A program made the translations under genes and the position numbers. Shown here piece after piece: positions 13,360 to 22,934 of a stretch of DNA of 38,461 nucleotides. Source of the DNA: Thermoplasmata archaeon (GTDB lineage Archaea > Thermoplasmatota > Thermoplasmata > Lutacidiplasmatales > UBA184); the NCBI GenBank assembly GCA_021798195.1, contig JAJZYH010000007.1, positions 1-38,461 of the forward strand, read 5' to 3'. Position 1 is the first letter of the stretch, and each line of letters begins with the position of its first letter. The notes under the pieces are model-generated. The model made no database searches. It was not told the DNA's origin and saw nothing but the letters and a program-made list of their open reading frames with translations.

Positions 13360-13950
13360 CTACCCGTCGGGGTCCTCCGCCTTCCAGCCCCGGTAGAGCT
13401 GGTGGGGGACTCCCAGGTGGTCCAGCACCTTGCCCGCGAGGTAATCCACCAGACCGTCCACCGTGGTGACCTTGAGGTAGTAGGGGGGGGCGGCCATGAG
13501 GAGGATCCCCCCCGCCTCCGCGAGGAGGGTCATGTTCCGCAGCGTGAACACGGAGAGGGGGGTCTCCCGGGGGACCAGCACCAGGGGCCGATGCTCCTTG
13601 AGATGGACGTGCGCGGACCGGGTGATGAGGGTGTCGGCGAGCCCGTGGGCGATCTTCCCCAGCGTGTTGGCGGAGCACGGGACGATGGCCATCCCCCGGG
13701 TGGGGGTGGAACCGCTGGCGATCCGGGCGGTGAAGTCCCCGTCGTCGTACACCCGGTCCACCAGCTCCTCGAGGTCCCGCGCGTACTTGCCGCACTCCTC
13801 CCGGAGGACGGTCTCCCCTCCGTCGGAGACCACGAGAGCCACCGGCACGTCGGTCTTGGCGAGGGTTTCCAGCACCCGGAGCGCGATGGGCGCCCCGCTC
13901 GCGCCGGTGATGCCGATGACGAGCGGCGGCTCTTCCCGTGGGGAGGACAT
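13360..13950 (-). CDS. ubiX: Flavin prenyltransferase UbiX
   Basis: A 196-residue UbiX/Pad1-family flavoprotein that prenylates FMN to make the cofactor of UbiD-type decarboxylases. Evidence: N-terminal VIGITGASGAPIALRVLE, the flavin-binding region IVPCSANTLGKIAHGLADTLITR, RPLVLVPRETPLSVFTLRNM, and GGILLMAAPPYY near the C-terminus. Length is normal. The ATG of MSSPREEP was chosen over an upstream in-frame start because the extra 38 residues are Arg/Pro-rich and outside the family. No ubiD lies in the window. It leads a four-gene operon ending in guaAA. In archaea the UbiX/UbiD pair has been linked to quinone or mevalonate-related decarboxylations; its client here is unknown. Confidence 0.92.
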   Translation of the reverse strand: MSSPREEPPLVIGITGASGAPIALRVLETLAKTDVPVALVVSDGGETVLREECGKYARDLEELVDRVYDDGDFTARIASGSTPTRGMAIVPCSANTLGKIAHGLADTLITRSAHVHLKEHRPLVLVPRETPLSVFTLRNMTLLAEAGGILLMAAPPYYLKVTTVDGLVDYLAGKVLDHLGVPHQLYRGWKAEDPDG

Positions 13951-13994
13951 GAGATGGTTCACCCTCGGAGGCTTGATGTGGACGAGCCGGGTAG

Positions 13995-14002
13995 GGATAA
14001 TG
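13995..14002 (+). promoter_or_regulatory. TATA-like box of the thiolase gene
   Basis: GGATAATG lies 24-26 bases before the GTG at 14022, the spacing expected for a leaderless start. This is the main reason for choosing that start codon. Confidence 0.45.
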
Positions 14003-14021
14003 GCTTTTGGGGGTCGGCGTC

Positions 14022-15191
14022 GTGGTCCGGGGGCAGCGTTCGGTGGCCGTAGTCGGGGCCGCACAGACCCCGTTCGGGACCCGGCCCGAGAGCGCGCCCC
14101 GCCTCCTCCGGGACTGCGTCCGGGAGGTCCTCTCCTCGGTGGACAAGGGGATCGCGCCGGCGGACCTCGGGGCCGGCTACCTCGCCACGCTGGGCTTCGG
14201 GGGGTGGCAGCTGGGGGATGCGGCCGCGCTCCTCGCCGAGGAGGCGGGTCGGCCCTCGATGCCCACGGTACGGGTGGAGAACGCCTGCGCGTCGGGAGGA
14301 TCGGCGATCCGGCAGGCCTACCATGCCATCCGCTCGGGGGAGGTGGACGTGGCCCTCGTGGTGGGGGTGGAGAAGATGACCGACCTGACCTCGCGCCGGC
14401 GCCGGTTCTGGCTGGGCGTGAGCGGCGACACCGAGTGGGAGCGCCTCGCCGGCCTCACCTTCGCCGGCGTCTACGCCCTCATGGCCCGCCGCTACGCCAT
14501 GGACCACGGGCCCCTGGAACCCGCCCTCGCGGCGGTGGCGGTGAAGAACCATGCCAACGGGGCGCGGAACCCTCACGCCCATTTCCAGAAGGTCATCACC
14601 GCGGAGGACCACGACTCGTCCCCGCTGGTGGCCGATCCCCTGCGCCTCTACGATTGCTCTCCCGTCTCCGACGGGGCCGCGGGGGTGATCCTCGCCCGGC
14701 GGGAACTCGCCGCCCGGTTCACCGACACCCCGGTCTACCTCGTGGCGAGCGGAGGAGGGAGCGACCACCTGGCGCTCCAGGACCGGGAGTCCCTCACCTC
14801 CCTCCGGGCCACGCGGGAGGCGGCCCAGGAGGCGTTCCGGGCCTCTCCCTTCCTCCCGAAGGACGTGCAGTTCGCGGAGGTCCACGATTGCTTCACCATC
14901 GCCGAACTCCTGGCGCTGGAGGACCTGGGCCTCGCCCCCCGGGGGGGCGCGGGCCAGAAGGAGCTCGCGGGGGATACCTCCCTGGGAGGCTCCCTTCCGG
15001 TGAACCCCTCCGGCGGCCTCAAGGCCAAGGGACACCCCCTGGGAGCCACGGGGGTCTCCCAGGTGGTGGAGATCTTCCAGCAGCTCCGGCAGGCCGCCGG
15101 CCCCCGGCAGGTCCCGGGAGCCGAGCGCGCCCTGGCGCACAACGTGGGGGGAAGCGGTGCCACGGCCGTGGTGCACCTCTTCTCGAGGTAG
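14022..15191 (+). CDS. Acetyl-CoA acetyltransferase (archaeal SCP-x-type thiolase)
   Basis: A 389-residue thiolase of the archaeal/SCP-x type. Condensation of two acetyl-CoA to acetoacetyl-CoA, the first mevalonate-pathway step, is the likely reaction. The nucleophile is C89 in ENACASGG; HDCF (H288-D-C290) and GHPLGATG (H338) give the remaining active-site residues. The NPSGG loop precedes the last. Archaeal acetoacetyl-CoA thiolases form complexes with HMG-CoA synthase and a DUF35 protein, and a DUF35-containing gene starts 10 bases downstream. The GTG at 14022 was selected from the TATA spacing; an in-frame TTG lies 15 bases upstream. A beta-oxidation thiolase is the main alternative. Confidence 0.88.
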   Translation: MVRGQRSVAVVGAAQTPFGTRPESAPRLLRDCVREVLSSVDKGIAPADLGAGYLATLGFGGWQLGDAAALLAEEAGRPSMPTVRVENACASGGSAIRQAYHAIRSGEVDVALVVGVEKMTDLTSRRRRFWLGVSGDTEWERLAGLTFAGVYALMARRYAMDHGPLEPALAAVAVKNHANGARNPHAHFQKVITAEDHDSSPLVADPLRLYDCSPVSDGAAGVILARRELAARFTDTPVYLVASGGGSDHLALQDRESLTSLRATREAAQEAFRASPFLPKDVQFAEVHDCFTIAELLALEDLGLAPRGGAGQKELAGDTSLGGSLPVNPSGGLKAKGHPLGATGVSQVVEIFQQLRQAAGPRQVPGAERALAHNVGGSGATAVVHLFSR

Positions 15192-15201
15192 GAGGGATCG
15201 A

Positions 15202-16638
15202 ATGGGGGTCCTCAACGCCGCCTCGGTGGTCATCCCCAACCGGGTCCTGGCCGGGGTCCGTGTGGAGGGCCCCGACGAGGACACCTTCACCCTCGTGGTC
15301 CGTGCGGCGAAGCTCCTGGGACGGGCGGAGGTCACTTCCGGAGGTCCCGTGGGGGTGCCCCGGCGGATCCACATCCTGTCCACCCTCCCGGAGGCTTGGG
15401 CGAACCTCCTGCGGGAGACCGGTGCCTTCGGCACCGGGCAGCTGGTCCTGGAACCCCTCCATTCGGCCGCCGTCCACTCCACCCTGGAGTCCATGCTGGC
15501 CCAGGACCCGGGGGAAGGTGCCCGCGACTGGGTCATCGGAGCCCGGGTATCGGGGGAGTCCGGGACCCCGGGGATCCCGTCCCCCGCCGGGGCCGTGGGC
15601 CTGAGCTTCGCCTCGGGCGGAGGCCTGGGGGTCTCTCTCCTGCACGCCATCCGGTCCCCGGCGGAAGGACGGGGAGACCTCACGCAGGAGCTCCGCCGAT
15701 GGCTGGGCCATCCCCCGTGGGACCCCAAGGCGGGACCCTCGCAGGTGTGGTGGAGCGGAGCCTCCCTCCCCACCGGCTCCATCCTCTCGGGGACCCCCTC
15801 CGGGAACCCGGGCTCTCCCCCTCCCCCGCCGCCGCTCCCCGTGGCCGACGTGGCCTCCCCGCTCCGCCCCCTGGCCGTCCTCGTGGAGGGGGCCACGGAG
15901 CTCCCCACCGATGCGAGCTTCGGGCTCTGGATCGACTGGGGGGCCCATCACCTCACCGTGCGGGAGGTCCGACGGCACGGTCCGGTCTCCGTGGAGGGTC
16001 TCCCCCGTCGGGGGGATGCACCGCTCCCGCTGGAACCCGCGGCGTGGACGGCCCGGGACAAGATCCCCCTCCAGGCGGTGAGCGAGGGGGCCTACGTCTC
16101 CGACGCCCGCTACCTGGAATCGCTGCCGTTCCGATGGAGGCTGGAGGCGGACAAGTGCGGCAACTGCGGCCGATGGACGTTCCCGCCCCGGGGACGCTGC
16201 CCGCACTGCGGAGAGACCCGGGAGATCGACCACGGGCGCCTCCCGGAGATGGGGGGAGTCCTCGAGACCTACACGGTGATCCGGAAGGGGGCCCAGCCCT
16301 CCGAGTTCGATTTCATGGAGCGGGCGCTGGGGAGCTACGCTGTGGGGCTGGTGCGGCTTCCGGGAGGGATCCGGCTCACGCTCCAGATCGCCGACTCGGA
16401 TCCCGCCACCCTGGCGCCGGGACAGGTCGTGGAGCTCGTCCTGCGGCGTCTCTACCCGCAGGAGGGGGCCTGGCGGTACGGCCTCAAGGCGATGGTCCGC
16501 CGGGACCTCCCCCTGGACGAATCGGTGTTCCAGCCCTCTCCACCCCCTCCCCCATCCGCCCCGGCGGCTCCCCGGCGGCAGCGGGCAAGATCCCCCAGGA
16601 CGGCCCGCGCCGCCCCGGAGGGCGCTCCCGCGCCCTGA
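15202..16638 (+). CDS. Degenerate HMG-CoA-synthase-like domain fused to DUF35 zinc-ribbon/OB domain
   Basis: A 478-residue fusion. Residues 1-150 resemble the N-terminal half of archaeal HMG-CoA synthase: VVIPNRV, the conserved GPDEDTFTLVVRAAKLL (23-39), and PAGAVGLSF. The catalytic Cys region appears as EPLHSAAVHSTLE (84-96) and no Cys exists before residue 319, so thiolase-type catalysis looks lost. A variable Pro-rich segment follows (about 200-220). At 300-440 is a DUF35 unit: SDARYLESLPFRWRLEADKCGNCG, zinc ribbon C319-x2-C322-x10-C333-x2-C336, then an OB-fold ending AWRYGLKAMVRR. The tail is Pro/Arg-rich. DUF35 proteins bridge thiolase and HMG-CoA synthase and channel acetoacetyl-CoA. 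A GGAGGG site precedes the ATG. A scaffold for the adjacent thiolase is inferred. Confidence 0.78.
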   Translation: MGVLNAASVVIPNRVLAGVRVEGPDEDTFTLVVRAAKLLGRAEVTSGGPVGVPRRIHILSTLPEAWANLLRETGAFGTGQLVLEPLHSAAVHSTLESMLAQDPGEGARDWVIGARVSGESGTPGIPSPAGAVGLSFASGGGLGVSLLHAIRSPAEGRGDLTQELRRWLGHPPWDPKAGPSQVWWSGASLPTGSILSGTPSGNPGSPPPPPPLPVADVASPLRPLAVLVEGATELPTDASFGLWIDWGAHHLTVREVRRHGPVSVEGLPRRGDAPLPLEPAAWTARDKIPLQAVSEGAYVSDARYLESLPFRWRLEADKCGNCGRWTFPPRGRCPHCGETREIDHGRLPEMGGVLETYTVIRKGAQPSEFDFMERALGSYAVGLVRLPGGIRLTLQIADSDPATLAPGQVVELVLRRLYPQEGAWRYGLKAMVRRDLPLDESVFQPSPPPPPSAPAAPRRQRARSPRTARAAPEGAPAP

Positions 16639-18841: not shown

Positions 18842-19309
18842 TCAGTGGGGGGCCGAGCCGGGCGCGGGTCCCTTCCCGTCGGGCCCGAACGGCGAGGAAG
18901 AGACCCCCTTGTCCTGGAAGGGGACCCAGACTCCGCGCTTCGCGTCAAAATCGATCCGGTCCAGATTCACGGTGAACTTCTCCAGGGTCGCGGAAGGGGC
19001 GGGAAGCACCACCACGGCGTACACGTAGACCCCGAAGCCCATGAACTCCACCACCCGGCGCAGGACCTCCGGGAGCGCCTCCCGGGGCACTGTGGCAGAG
19101 ATCCGGTTCTCTCCCAGGAGCTCCGAGAACTCATCGACGTCGAACGGCTTCTCCAGGCGCAGGAGACCGCCTCCCGGAGGCGCCGGTGGGGCCACCGGGG
19201 AAGCGGGGGCCTGGGCCGGGAGAGGCCGGGAGGGAGGAGACGCGGGTGGGGTCCCCGAGCCCGGAGCCGCTCTCCTCGTCGTCTGCTTCTTGCCGCCCTT
19301 CTTCGCCAT
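18842..19309 (-). CDS. Unknown protein with basic, Pro/Ala-rich N-terminus
   Basis: A 155-residue protein with two parts. Residues 1-50 are basic then Pro/Ala-rich (MAKKGGKKQTTRRAAP) and probably disordered. Residues 52-140 form a compact alpha/beta domain: LLRLEKPFDVDEFSELLGENRISATV, a hydrophobic VEFMGFGVYVYAVVVLP strand pair, then TVNLDRIDFDAKRGVWVPFQDKG. The family was not recognised. No signal peptide exists; the FGVYVYAVVVLP segment is too short for a confident membrane span. The ATG was preferred to an upstream GTG since the basic start looks like a true N-terminus. It is divergent from the tes-like gene, separated by about 200 bases. Confidence 0.6.
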   Translation of the reverse strand: MAKKGGKKQTTRRAAPGSGTPPASPPSRPLPAQAPASPVAPPAPPGGGLLRLEKPFDVDEFSELLGENRISATVPREALPEVLRRVVEFMGFGVYVYAVVVLPAPSATLEKFTVNLDRIDFDAKRGVWVPFQDKGVSSSPFGPDGKGPAPGSAPH

Positions 19310-19431
19310 GGTCTCGAACACCTGCCGTTCCCCCACCCGCCACGGGGCCTTTAAGGCCGTTGTCCTTGCGGGGTGCCCGTGGCAGGCCGTGGCAGCCCCC
19401 GGGCGTCCTGTCGCAACCTGGACGACAAACT

Positions 19432-19439
19432 GATTATAT
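19432..19439 (+). promoter_or_regulatory. TATA box of the tes-like gene
   Basis: GATTATAT is a clear AT-rich island about 70 bases before the ATG. It implies a leader of about 40 bases that contains the GGAAGGA ribosome binding site before the start. A TTTAA at 19350-19354 may serve the divergent minus-strand gene. Confidence 0.55.
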
Positions 19440-19506
19440 GGGATGCTCGAGGTGGGGGACCAAGAGCGGACGACCCCTCGCCGCTCGCAGCAAGGAAGGA
19501 AGCAAC

Positions 19507-21213
19507 ATGCCAGCCCGAGTCATGAAGGAGTTCCAGGCCCCGCGAGGACTGCCCCGGAAGACGGCATCCGTCTGCCCGGAGTGCATCAAGGTGATCCCGG
19601 CGGTGGTCCGGGAGAAGGATGGGCGGGTGATCATGGAGAAGAACTGCCGGACCCATGGCTACTTCTGGGACGTGATCTCCAACGACGTGGACCTCTACCT
19701 CCGGATGGAGGTGTACGCCCACGATGGGGTGGGGTACGAGAACCCCTACTACGACAAGTTCAAGGGATGCCCCAACACGTGCGGGATGTGCACGCATCAC
19801 AAGTCCCACACGGGCCTCGCCCTCATGGACCTCACCAACCGGTGCAACCTCAAGTGCCCGGTCTGCTTCGCCAACGCCAACGCCGCCGGGTACGTCTACG
19901 AGCCCACCCGGGAGCAGATCTACTTCATGCTGAAGACCCTCCGGGAGCAGAAGCCGGTGGGCGCGGTGGCGGTCCAGTTCAGCGGGGGCGAGCCCACCCT
20001 GTCCCCCCTCTTCCTGGAAGCCTGCAACATGGCCCACCAGCTGGGGTTCACCCAGATCCAGGTGGCCACCAACGGGATCCGGTTCGCCAACGAGCCGGGA
20101 TTCGCGCAGGCCGCCCGGAACTCCCACCTGCACACCCTCTACCTCCAGTTCGACGGGCTGGACGACGAGATCTACCGGAAGGTCCGGGGCGTCCCGCTCC
20201 TCAAGGTGAAGCAGCGGGCCATCGAGAACGCCCGGAACACCCACACGCCCCCCGACGAGCTCGCCCTGGGCAAGCCCGACAAGCCCATCTCCGTGGTCCT
20301 GGTGCCCACCCTCGTGGGCGGGTTCAACGAGAACCAGATCATGCCCACCATCGATTTCGCCATCGACAACATCGACGTGGTCCGGGGAGTGAACTTCCAG
20401 CCGGTGGCCCTCACCGCGCGGATCCCCGACAAGGACCGCTTCAGCATGCGGTTCACCCAGTCGGACCTCGTCCGGATCCTCTGCAATGAGGGTCCCTTCG
20501 AGAAGTCGGACTTCTTCCCGGTGCCCTCCGTGGCCCCCATCTCGGAACTGGTGAGCATCCTCCACGGCCAGGACAAGATGACCCTCACCACCCACCCCGG
20601 CTGCGGCTGCGCCACGTTCGCCTTCGTGGACAAGAACCGGAAGGTGACCCCGCTCACGCGCTTCATGGACGTGGACGGATTCTTCGAGAACGTGGAGGCG
20701 CTCATCGAGAAGTACCGGGAGGCCCGCTTCCAGCGGGTCCGGATGGCGGTGGCGGGGGCGAAGCTCATGCACGACGTCTCCAAGTACTTCGACTTCTCGA
20801 AGGCCCCCGAGGGCCTCAACGAGAAGAACATCGTGAAGGTCATCGCGGGGATCTTCACCCACGGCGACAAGGAATCGGTGGGGAAGTTCGCCTGGCGGGC
20901 CCTCTACATCGGGAACATGCACTTCCAGGACGCCTACGACTACGACATCCAGCGCCTGATGCGCTGCGATATCCACTACTCGGTTCCCGACGGACGCATC
21001 ATCCCGTTCTGCTCGTACAACTCCGGCCCCATCTACCGGACGGAAGTGGAGAAGAAGTTCTCCATCGCCATCCCCGACTGGCAGAAGCAGAAGGGGGACA
21101 CGATGAAGATCAAGACCATCGAGAACATGGGGATCAACGGCGAAGTGGTGGTGGATCCCGAATACTACCGGATCCGTGCCCTCAAGGCCCAGCCGGGATT
21201 CGGGAGCGCCTGA
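19507..21213 (+). CDS. tes: Radical SAM tetraether lipid synthase (Tes-type)
   Basis: A 568-residue radical SAM enzyme resembling Tes (MJ0619 of Methanocaldococcus), which joins archaeol phytanyl chains into tetraethers. The N-terminal metal site has C23-x2-C26 and C47; a second Cys cluster is C88, C92, C95 (GCPNTCGMCTHHKSHTGL). The radical SAM motif is C113-x3-C117-x2-C120 in NRCNLKCPVC, followed by SGGEPT (159-164) for SAM binding. Later HPGCGCATF and an FCSYN segment add Cys that may bind another cluster. Length and motif order fit Tes. It is monocistronic, with its own promoter and a hairpin after the stop. Other members of the family act on other lipids, so substrate is inferred. Confidence 0.85.
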   Translation: MPARVMKEFQAPRGLPRKTASVCPECIKVIPAVVREKDGRVIMEKNCRTHGYFWDVISNDVDLYLRMEVYAHDGVGYENPYYDKFKGCPNTCGMCTHHKSHTGLALMDLTNRCNLKCPVCFANANAAGYVYEPTREQIYFMLKTLREQKPVGAVAVQFSGGEPTLSPLFLEACNMAHQLGFTQIQVATNGIRFANEPGFAQAARNSHLHTLYLQFDGLDDEIYRKVRGVPLLKVKQRAIENARNTHTPPDELALGKPDKPISVVLVPTLVGGFNENQIMPTIDFAIDNIDVVRGVNFQPVALTARIPDKDRFSMRFTQSDLVRILCNEGPFEKSDFFPVPSVAPISELVSILHGQDKMTLTTHPGCGCATFAFVDKNRKVTPLTRFMDVDGFFENVEALIEKYREARFQRVRMAVAGAKLMHDVSKYFDFSKAPEGLNEKNIVKVIAGIFTHGDKESVGKFAWRALYIGNMHFQDAYDYDIQRLMRCDIHYSVPDGRIIPFCSYNSGPIYRTEVEKKFSIAIPDWQKQKGDTMKIKTIENMGINGEVVVDPEYYRIRALKAQPGFGSA

Positions 21214-21229
21214 ACCGGTCCGCCCCAAC

Positions 21230-21253
21230 GGGGGCCCTCCTGAGAGGGCCCCC
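21230..21253 (+). terminator. Perfect 10-bp hairpin behind tes, between convergent genes
   Basis: GGGGGCCCTC and GAGGGCCCCC form a perfect 10-bp stem with the four-base loop CTGA, 17 bases after the tes stop. It lies between convergent genes and could act for both strands. There is no T-run, so it may instead protect the mRNA end. Confidence 0.55.
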
Positions 21254-21298: not shown

Positions 21299-21787
21299 TC
21301 AGGGGGGAGGGCCGGCGGGGAGACGGCGTGCGGATCCGGGGCGCTGGAAGATCCGCCTTCCCTCCCGCCGGAGCTTCTGAAGGACCCTTGAGAAATCACC
21401 GCTCGCGAGGCTCTCCCGGCTCGCCTCGACGAGGGTCTCGTGGGCCGCGAGGGTGGCCTCGAGGTCGGGGAGGTCGTTCCCGGCTGCTGCGGCGGGGGTC
21501 GGTGCCGGCGGATGGACCGCGGCATACGCCAGGGTGGCCTCGAGATGCTTGCACGTCCCCACGCGCCGGTTGAGGAAGTCCCGGCAGTTGCAGCTGGCCC
21601 CTTCCCGGCGGGGGAACGCGGGGACCCGGACCATGTAGGTCTGCCCGGAGGAGCCCTCCACCCTCCAGCGAGGTCCTTCGAGGGGGGCCGGGGCGTAGGT
21701 GATGGCGAAGCGGCCCGTCACGGCGCGCTGCCGGCGGACCTCCTCGGCGGGAGGCGGGGGGGAGGGAGCGGCGTTCCCCTCCGTCAT
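21299..21787 (-). CDS. Stand-alone SWIM zinc-finger protein
   Basis: A 162-residue protein with a SWIM domain: C66-x-C68-x10-C79-x-H81 (CNCRDFLNRRVGTCKHLEA), preceded by the typical strand WRVEGSSGQTYMVRVP. SWIM domains bind DNA or protein and are often found at the N-terminus of SNF2-type helicases, in MuDR transposases, or with recombination partners. Here no helicase follows. The C-terminal part (110-150) is helical (DLPDLEATLAAHETLVEASRESL). The ATG of MTEGNAAP was chosen because the frame upstream overlaps the divergent genes. It could assist recombination or repair, but the partner is unknown. Confidence 0.8.
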   Translation of the reverse strand: MTEGNAAPSPPPPAEEVRRQRAVTGRFAITYAPAPLEGPRWRVEGSSGQTYMVRVPAFPRREGASCNCRDFLNRRVGTCKHLEATLAYAAVHPPAPTPAAAAGNDLPDLEATLAAHETLVEASRESLASGDFSRVLQKLRREGRRIFQRPGSARRLPAGPPP

Positions 21788-21880
21788 GGTCCCTTGGCGG
21801 GACCGGCGGTGGGATTTCGCCGGGGGCGGGGTGCCAGAGGTGCCCATGCGGAGGGGTCCGAGGCTCCGGGCGCCAAGAAG

Positions 21881-22219
21881 ATGACGTCCGGCGAAGGCAA
21901 GGCTCATCTGGGGAAGAAACTCGATGGGGGCATGGGCGGGAGTAGCTCCCCCTCGCAGGAACCCCTCCCGGTCCCCCCGGGGATGGTGCTGCTCCCCCGG
22001 ATCTCCCCCGCGCGGGGCGTCGCGGGTTTCATATTGGTGCTGGTGGGCCTGGGGAGCCTCATCCTCACGATCTACTACGGGACCATCCCCAACGTCCACC
22101 AGGAGGCGGCACTCGCCGTGGGCTTCCTTCTGGTCTTCGGAGGTGGGGCGCTCATGGGGTTCGTCCACGGTCGAAGGCCGCCCCGCCCCCGGAGAAGGTC
22201 CACCCATGGAGCCCCCTGA
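21881..22219 (+). CDS. Small two-span membrane protein coupled to a HAD phosphatase
   Basis: A 112-residue protein: a polar Gly/Ser-rich N-terminus (1-40), two hydrophobic segments (about 47-66 and 75-94) and a basic Arg/Pro-rich tail. It was not recognised. The final 14 bases overlap the HAD phosphatase start, which supports translation of this frame. The ATG at 21881 was chosen; another ATG, 22 codons before the first span, would also leave both spans intact. Confidence 0.6.
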   Translation: MTSGEGKAHLGKKLDGGMGGSSSPSQEPLPVPPGMVLLPRISPARGVAGFILVLVGLGSLILTIYYGTIPNVHQEAALAVGFLLVFGGGALMGFVHGRRPPRPRRRSTHGAP

Positions 22220-22934
22220 CCGGGACCTTCCCCGGACCCCGTTCCGGATGGTCACCTTCGACATCGACGGGACGCTCACCCGGGGACACGGGTGGGCCCA
22301 CATCGCCCGGTCCCTGGGGAAGGACGCGGAGTACGCTGCCACCCAGGACGCATTCCTGCGGGGGAAGGAATCGGAAGAGGTGCACCTCGTGAATCTCCTC
22401 AACCTGGCGGCCGGGGTCCCGCTCACCACCCTGGAGGCCCTCCTTGAGGAGACGCCCAAGATCTCCGGAATCTCGGAGACGGTGGGAGATCTCACGGCGC
22501 GGGGGGTCATCCCCGCGCTCCTCACGCATAATCCGAGTTACGTGTGCCGGTGGTACTGCCGGACCTTCGGGTTCGCGGGGTTCTCCGGGAGCGAACAGGA
22601 GGTCCAGGGCGGGGTCATCCAGCCGGTCCACCACGCGGAGGCGGACAAGGTCGGTGGGCTGAGGTCCCTCACCCGGCGCTGGGGGATCCCGCCGGGGGCC
22701 ACCCTCCATGTGGGGGATGCGCCCGCGGACGCGACCGTGGCCGAATTCACGGGAGGGTTCGTGGCGCTGAACGCCGATAGGGAAGGCGTCCGGGCCCGTG
22801 CCGACCGGGTCCTCTTTACGGAGGATCTCCGGGACGTGATCCCCCTCGTGGCCACCGTGTTCCATCCCCCTCGTCGGATCCTTCTCCCGGTGGTCCACCC
22901 CTCAGGGGCCCGCGACGGATGTGAACGTTCTTAA
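22206..22934 (+). CDS. HAD-superfamily phosphatase (SerB-like)
   Basis: A 242-residue HAD hydrolase. Motif I is FDIDGTLT (D19 nucleophile, D21 general acid). The helical cap lies at about 28-90. Motif II is LLTHN, motif III the Lys of EADKVGGL, and motif IV VGDAPADATV with its two Asp. This order fits the phosphoserine-phosphatase subgroup, and length is close, but PSP-specific residues cannot be checked by eye, so the substrate is open. The gene overlaps the small membrane protein by 14 bases. Its stop codon lies inside the TATA-like sequence of the next gene. Confidence 0.82.
   Translation: MEPPDRDLPRTPFRMVTFDIDGTLTRGHGWAHIARSLGKDAEYAATQDAFLRGKESEEVHLVNLLNLAAGVPLTTLEALLEETPKISGISETVGDLTARGVIPALLTHNPSYVCRWYCRTFGFAGFSGSEQEVQGGVIQPVHHAEADKVGGLRSLTRRWGIPPGATLHVGDAPADATVAEFTGGFVALNADREGVRARADRVLFTEDLRDVIPLVATVFHPPRRILLPVVHPSGARDGCERS

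Follow-up and report, generated by a model that had tools for sequence, protein, structure and literature searches.

What controls the tes gene of this Thermoplasmata archaeon, and is its product a genuine tetraether synthase? Tes is a radical SAM enzyme that couples the phytanyl chain ends of archaeol-type lipids to make tetraethers. It decides between bilayer and monolayer lipids, and it underlies GDGT-based palaeothermometry. Our searches of open-access papers turned up no regulator of tes, and no transcription factor of tes is named in the accessible text of PMC8941075, PMC9433317, PMC10465181, PMC10138448, PMC4870337, PMC7285479 or PMC13286277. In Thermococcus kodakarensis, a TrmB protein is up in stationary phase as tetraethers increase; the accessible text of that paper discusses the protein as a sugar and global regulator and gives it no role in controlling tetraether synthesis (PMC4870337). 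The window, meaning the whole stretch of DNA that was analysed (38,461 nucleotides), is archaeal, as it encodes an archaeal threonyl-tRNA synthetase editing domain and SUI1; Rfam and tRNA searches of it gave no match and no tRNA. The features discussed below are collected in Table 1.

The enzyme and its relatives

The tes reading frame is intact from the ATG at 19507 to the stop at 21213 on the + strand (568 aa). Its product scores 572.1 bits against the NCBIfam equivalog NF045702, 'tetraether lipid synthase Tes', which has a cut-off of 450, and matches the GDGT-MAS of M. jannaschii (PDB 7tol/7tom) with an E of 6.7e-132. When the two proteins are aligned, all metal ligands of the M. jannaschii enzyme are present position by position: the rubredoxin set C23/C26/C47/H50 (pattern CX2CX20CX2H), the N-terminal Cys3His cluster C88/C92/C95/H98, the radical SAM cysteines C113/C117/C120 (CX3CX2C), and the C-terminal cluster C366/C487/C502 with M471, the equivalent of Met439. 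Tyr491 corresponds to Tyr459; Met439 and Tyr459 are both treated in the accessible text of PMC9433317. Its nearest known counterparts are this enzyme and the Tes of Methanosarcina and Sulfolobus. An earlier note on this DNA had claimed a Tes-type synthase with three Cys clusters and a radical SAM core, and both claims hold on the NF045702 score and the alignment. Unlike the M. jannaschii enzyme, with which it has in common the four metal sites and the Met439 and Tyr459 equivalents, the window protein carries a C-terminal extension of ~36 aa, common to its family, and a short insert near residues 247-262. The extension (NGEVVVDPEYYRIRALK, window 21091-21210) is family-specific, partly found in L143 and absent from M. 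jannaschii.

By its sequence, then, 19507-21213 encodes a true Tes, and the gene itself is of an already known kind, the ordinary archaeal enzyme for membrane-spanning lipids. Within its own genome (1.75 Mb, 73 contigs) it is the sole match above the NF045702 cut-off. The same genome encodes a CarS-like protein as well as a GGR_cat protein (C41:70090), which makes archaeol a plausible substrate. The source organism is predicted to produce GDGTs.

A tree was built from 77 rows, with two distant plasmid homologs as its root and MA_1486, MA_1114 and Saci_0703 not among the rows; in it, the window protein groups with its own family, deep among the Tes rows. M. jannaschii, the only characterised Tes in the tree, is an outer branch (support 83), and L003 and L004, both flagged as long branches, lie outside. 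A tblastn search against plasmids gave 16 matches, and the 10 of them that were listed are all distant relatives, with at most 29% identity. Fourteen rows from Acidobacteriota (L083, L084, L087, L090, L093, L096, L100-L102, L107-L109, L111 and L112), sampled as part of the best 80 matches, form one clade (SH-aLRT 100) that is nested among Thermoplasmatota Tes and adjoins the window's group with a support of 93, under the 95 mark. Such a placement suggests transfer of tes from Thermoplasmatota to bacteria, for which our literature search found no paper. Acidobacteriota are bacteria suspected as makers of brGDGTs. Named relatives with 83-85% Tes identity to the window include AcS5-34, AcS5-58 and SubAcS15-120, which appear as isolates in the genome table of the Lutacidiplasmatales paper, in its accessible part (PMC9287336); on this ground the source organism, an uncultured Thermoplasmata archaeon, probably belongs to the order Lutacidiplasmatales. 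In another family, f19, the tes frame stays open upstream of the model match as far as an in-frame ATG, 147-156 bp away, in 14 of 14 loci read (L242, L246, L248, L250-L253, L259, L261, L262 and L264-L267), an N-terminal extension of ~50 residues relative to the model.

Table 1. Coordinates of features at the tes locus, as positions in the window
Feature	Position	Strand	Basis or remark
tes, tetraether (GDGT/macrocyclic archaeol) synthase, 568 aa	19507..21213	+	NF045702, PDB 7tol/7tom match
Divergent neighbour, family-conserved	18842..19309	-	occupies the place of tesR in other families
19-bp palindrome TGTCGC-AACCTGG-ACGACA, proposed TesR operator	19409..19427	.	conservation upstream of tes
BRE position AACTG (class consensus AAANN)	19428..19432	+	consensus positions 19-23 of palindrome-aligned sites
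TATA box ATTATAT (class consensus TTTAAAT)	19433..19439	+	consensus positions 24-30
Purine-rich RBS-like stretch AAGGAAGGAAG	19492..19502	+	read from sequence
Perfect 10-bp hairpin, function doubtful	21230..21253	.	after the stop codon
Convergent neighbour ORF	21299..22525	-	residues ~294-343 conserved in 10/22 family loci

The transcription unit and its promoter

Gene order was compared across 24 loci, 22 of them from the same family; L052 and L055 match the tes query only. The order that recurs in the family is UbiX, thiolase, DUF35 protein, M61 peptidase, small ORF, divergent ORF and tes, complete in some loci and partial in others, where contigs are cut or pieces were not found. The divergent ORF lies upstream in 19 of the 22 same-family loci, the other three being truncated at that point. 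Downstream, the convergent ORF is recognised by its conserved segment in 10. Because of this family-wide order, tes looks like a one-gene transcription unit in the window's family, as the earlier note had proposed.

The divergent ORF has a Pro-rich N-terminus and a weak match to an Alba-like fold (best E 0.044, mean pLDDT 73), a hint too slight for it to be retained as a candidate for the regulator. The conserved segment of the convergent ORF has a CxC...CxH pattern, which we take to be SWIM-like; Pfam and NCBIfam searches with this ORF gave no match. The UbiX, the thiolase and a 493-aa ChsH2/DUF35-type protein (window 13360-16638) recur near tes in the family and may form an isoprenoid-precursor cluster; the first ~300 residues of the 493-aa protein have no Pfam or NCBIfam match. 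In some other families, tes is followed on its own strand by a geranylgeranyl reductase-type gene, in an apparent operon (called by Pfam in L194 and L203, and by similarity in L197, L198, L204 and L209).

The hairpin beyond the stop codon is as perfect as the earlier note had said: its arms (21230-21239 and 21244-21253) pair at 10 of 10 positions around a 4-nt loop, and a stem of that size was reached in none of 100 mononucleotide shuffles. The role in control that the note gave it fares less well. The tail of the hairpin, CCTTCCAACC, is without a T-tract, and the hairpin is absent from the terminator-like sites found. The window was compared with 46 further loci whose Tes is 80% or more identical, a set of 47 in which several genomes occur twice; only 14 of the 47 have a Watson-Crick stem of at least 7 within 120 bp after the stop, and the sequences are unlike. 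Since it is not conserved in place and no T-run follows the stem, the hairpin was rejected as an intrinsic terminator and is unsupported as a control element.

The promoter gave a different picture. An alignment of 22 upstream regions, the window's included, brought to light an inverted repeat beside the TATA box, with the pattern TGTMGY-N7-RCKACA abutting the BRE/TATA of tes, and this palindrome recurs upstream of tes in relatives of merely 44-51% Tes identity. One region per genome, reaching up to 300 bp back from the Tes model match, was then scanned in the 138 Tes-bearing genomes of the class for which upstream DNA was obtained, a subset of the class in which families are unevenly sampled and genomes related. 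The core TGTMG-N9-CKACA is present in 88 of the 138, and in 103 when up to one mismatch is allowed, as compared with 0 and 3 for a reversed-motif control; dinucleotide shuffles averaged 0.14 and 2.32 and reached 1 and 5 at most. All 29 same-family genomes carry the core, and in 21 of 27 families half or more of the genomes have it. The palindrome-poor families are f8 (core in 1 of 17), f19 (0 of 21, with a loosened palindrome in 7) and f2 (0 of 2, with a one-mismatch site in one genome).

The family-weighted consensus of the 103 sites is T-TGTAGC-N7-GCTACA-AAA-NN-TTTAAAT, with 96-97% of the weight on T, T and A at positions 25-27; four of the 103 are f19 sites, two of which are off the TATA position. 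Spacing between palindrome and TATA box is fixed, in that 86 of the 88 core sites pass a loose test for a TATA box, namely a run of four A/T-rich bases 4-6 bp beyond the palindrome. Because the ATTATAT of the window is placed where the consensus has TTTAAAT, it is more than a chance match, and the TATA box that the earlier note had pointed to coincides with it. The note's wider suggestion, of a promoter of its own and independent control, gains support from the conserved palindrome and the candidate regulator described below. Most of the aligned same-family relatives (L033-L059) show another conserved block, TTGTAGCGA...ACCGTGCGACTCTCCGTCACGG, upstream of the palindrome, which is a palindrome too; this block is degenerate in the window (19350-19408), with a direct repeat CCGTGGCAG.

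As far as sequence counts can tell, the palindrome is nearly private to tes. The strict form occurs once in the window's own genome (twice for the reversed control). Across a draw of 150 genomes, its count per genome ranges over 0-4 and that of the reversed control over 0-15, and a large regulon was rejected on these counts. In families f6 and f15, the promoter of SAM synthetase carries a palindrome of the tes type in all seven of their genomes in the draw (L193, L195, L196, L199, L200, L201 and L202; two of the seven genes were named by Pfam and the others by similarity), which hints at a link to cofactor supply. SAM synthetase as a general co-target was rejected: 24 of 26 promoters read are without a core site, and the two that have one, of which one was read over 191 bp only, are both among the seven of f6 and f15.

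A TrmB-family candidate, TesR

In 29 loci (28 distinct), a gene of the TrmB family lies divergent from tes; TesR is the name coined here for its product. A model was made from 31 such proteins, and orthologs were called at E<=1e-30. By this measure, TesR is present in 125 of 150 genomes of the class; phylum-wide it occurs in 46 of 196 genomes, 9 of which belong to other classes. In 38 of the 125, spread over 12 families, its gene is divergent from tes and lies next to it, with a model-to-model gap of 105-148 bp; in three further genomes of f9 it is divergent within 1.1-4.5 kb. The window's own genome has a TesR ortholog (299.5 bits, sole match at 1e-5) at G000:C56:12656-13378(-), outside the window and not adjacent to tes.

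A 240-aa stretch of this ortholog scores 62.7 bits against Pfam TrmB PF01978 (gathering 25.6). The TrmB family is defined by PF01978 and/or PF11495, according to the part of PMC4158304 available. Of four TesR proteins searched for PF11495, the TrmB effector/sugar-binding domain, two fall below the cut-off of 22.2 (13.8 and 16.4) and two are not listed. An AlphaFold model of the TesR relative from L055 has an HTH, a long helix and a PLD-like domain (mean pLDDT 85.9, pTM 0.55), and its best PDB match is TrmBL2 (E 8e-14, TM ~0.4), with TrmBL2 and TrmB on top. TrmBL2 (PDB 5box, 5bpd, 5bqt) is the best fold and profile match of TesR; it is a chromatin protein by its entry titles, whereas TesR is proposed to be a site-specific regulator. 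TrmBL1/Tgr shares with the proposed TesR a TrmB-type HTH, a palindromic site and a geometry of activation from upstream and repression from downstream. It differs in its site, the Thermococcales glycolytic motif TATCAC-N5-GTGATA as opposed to TGTAGC-N7-GCTACA for the candidate TesR site, in having many sugar genes as targets where the candidate targets of TesR are few (tes, plus SAM synthetase in two families), and in that TesR has no clear PF11495 sugar-binding domain. In sequence, a palindromic site does lie at the BRE/TATA of tes, the candidate TesR target.

Several observations tie TesR to the palindrome. The gap of the 29 divergent tesR-tes loci holds the palindrome in 26 (24 core, 2 one-mismatch), at most 16 bp from the tesR start codon in 22 of these. 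Three loci, L007, L008 and L085, have tesR beside tes and no palindrome at up to one mismatch; L007 has a one-mismatch palindrome when read from the tes side. In families f1, f6, f15, f16, f17, f20, f23, f25 and f26, tesR is not adjacent to tes, and the core palindrome is found at tes in every genome read; since such families keep the site at tes, it cannot belong to tesR alone. In f11, the two genes are on different contigs in five genomes, tes not being found in the sixth. There all six tesR promoters carry a core palindrome of their own, on the downstream side of TATA, between a TTTAAAT box and the ATG, and tes has the core in 2 of 5 and a one-mismatch site in 3 of 5. The palindrome is missing in 16 of 17 f8 genomes, and the sole bearer, G134, is the only TesR holder of 20. 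Across the 138 genomes, those with TesR have the site in 100 cases and are without it in 19, and those without TesR have it in 3 and are without it in 16 (Fisher p 7e-9, uncorrected for kinship and driven by f8).

Other loci fit less neatly. TesR is present in 21 of 21 f19 genomes, its recognition helix intact in the 20 read, with the core palindrome at tes in 0 of 21; because f19 retains TesR without a core site, TesR must have other targets or tolerate drift. Three genomes have a site and no TesR match at E<=1e-30: G115 (96% complete), G099 (94%, one-mismatch site) and G026 (88%). In f1, the window's family, where tesR is non-adjacent, 0 of 12 tesR promoters read have a core site and one has a one-mismatch match; the window's own tesR, whose contig ends ~100 bp upstream, is outside this set. 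With no core site in 12 f1, 7 other and 14 further loci, autoregulation of non-adjacent tesR was rejected. Two one-mismatch matches occur in the tesR promoter of G063, and f11 is the exception among non-adjacent tesR genes. The enzyme family and its ligands, the palindrome with its spacing and conservation, the adjacency of TesR and the second copy at tesR in f11 are all direct readings of the DNA.

Activation or repression, and what it would mean

The palindrome probably binds a regulator devoted largely to tes. From the features above we infer that TesR would be the protein that binds it, which sign its regulation would have, and that its C-terminal PLD-like domain would sense a signal. For TrmBL1, sites upstream of BRE/TATA activate and downstream ones repress, according to the accessible parts of PMC4706686 and PMC4158304, a rule under which TesR would be an activator of tes and a repressor of its own gene. 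If the analogy with TrmBL1/Tgr holds, a TesR dimer bound just upstream of the BRE/TATA would help recruit the basal factors and so turn tes on. At divergent tesR-tes loci, the same palindrome lies next to the tesR start codon, which would be a repressing position, so that a single site would serve both for activation of tes and for autorepression of tesR. We regard it as likely that TesR activates tes through the palindrome and represses its own gene when that promoter holds the site.

It is possible, with a lesser and minority probability, that TesR binds the palindrome and represses tes by blocking TFB at the BRE. The palindrome touches the BRE, and TrmB of P. furiosus represses malE from a site at BRE/TATA (PMC4158304, in the text available); on the other hand, the palindrome of tes stops 5 bp before the TATA box and leaves it uncovered, and TrmBL1 activates from upstream sites in the portion of PMC4706686 consulted. 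That the palindrome is the operator of another regulator, TesR merely adjoining tes in some lineages, seems improbable. It would account for f19, which keeps TesR without the core site, for G115, which has the site without TesR, and for the three loci with an adjacent TesR and no clear site, but it sits poorly with the adjacency of TesR in 12 families, with the separate copy of the site that all six f11 genomes have at their distant tesR, and with the co-loss of TesR and site in f8.

The two remaining readings concern the gene rather than its regulator. The window protein could be a Tes-like paralog with another activity, such as making macrocyclic archaeol only, like MA_1114, a second Tes homolog that gave mere traces of macrocyclic archaeol (PMC8941075, accessible text). 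This is very unlikely, as the window protein is the only one in its genome over the Tes cut-off, scores well above it and has the catalytic residues. Least credible of all is that nothing here is special and that, on the lines of the earlier note, an unremarkable Tes gene has an unremarkable promoter and ends in a terminator hairpin; Tes is indeed a known family and the hairpin is exact, but the palindrome is conserved far above its controls and the hairpin is not conserved.

Activation by TesR is thus the preferred reading, and what is new here is the pair of proposed operator and candidate regulator, the tes gene being of a kind already known. A broader proposal, to which we give an even chance, is that the pair is an ancient dedicated switch for membrane-spanning lipids, in place since the ancestor of the class Thermoplasmata. 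In it, a regulator of the TrmB family, whose sensor domain is PLD-like and probably non-catalytic, would respond to a signal linked to lipids or to SAM; a single palindrome would let it switch on tes and hold down its own gene, and in some lineages it would raise SAM synthetase too. If true, the SAM synthetase co-target would couple lipid remodelling to the supply of the cofactor that Tes consumes. With a proposed operator defined to the base and a candidate for its regulator, control of tes becomes testable in cultured Thermoplasmata, and the conserved palindrome and its candidate regulator would give a handle on how archaea switch on membrane-spanning lipids.
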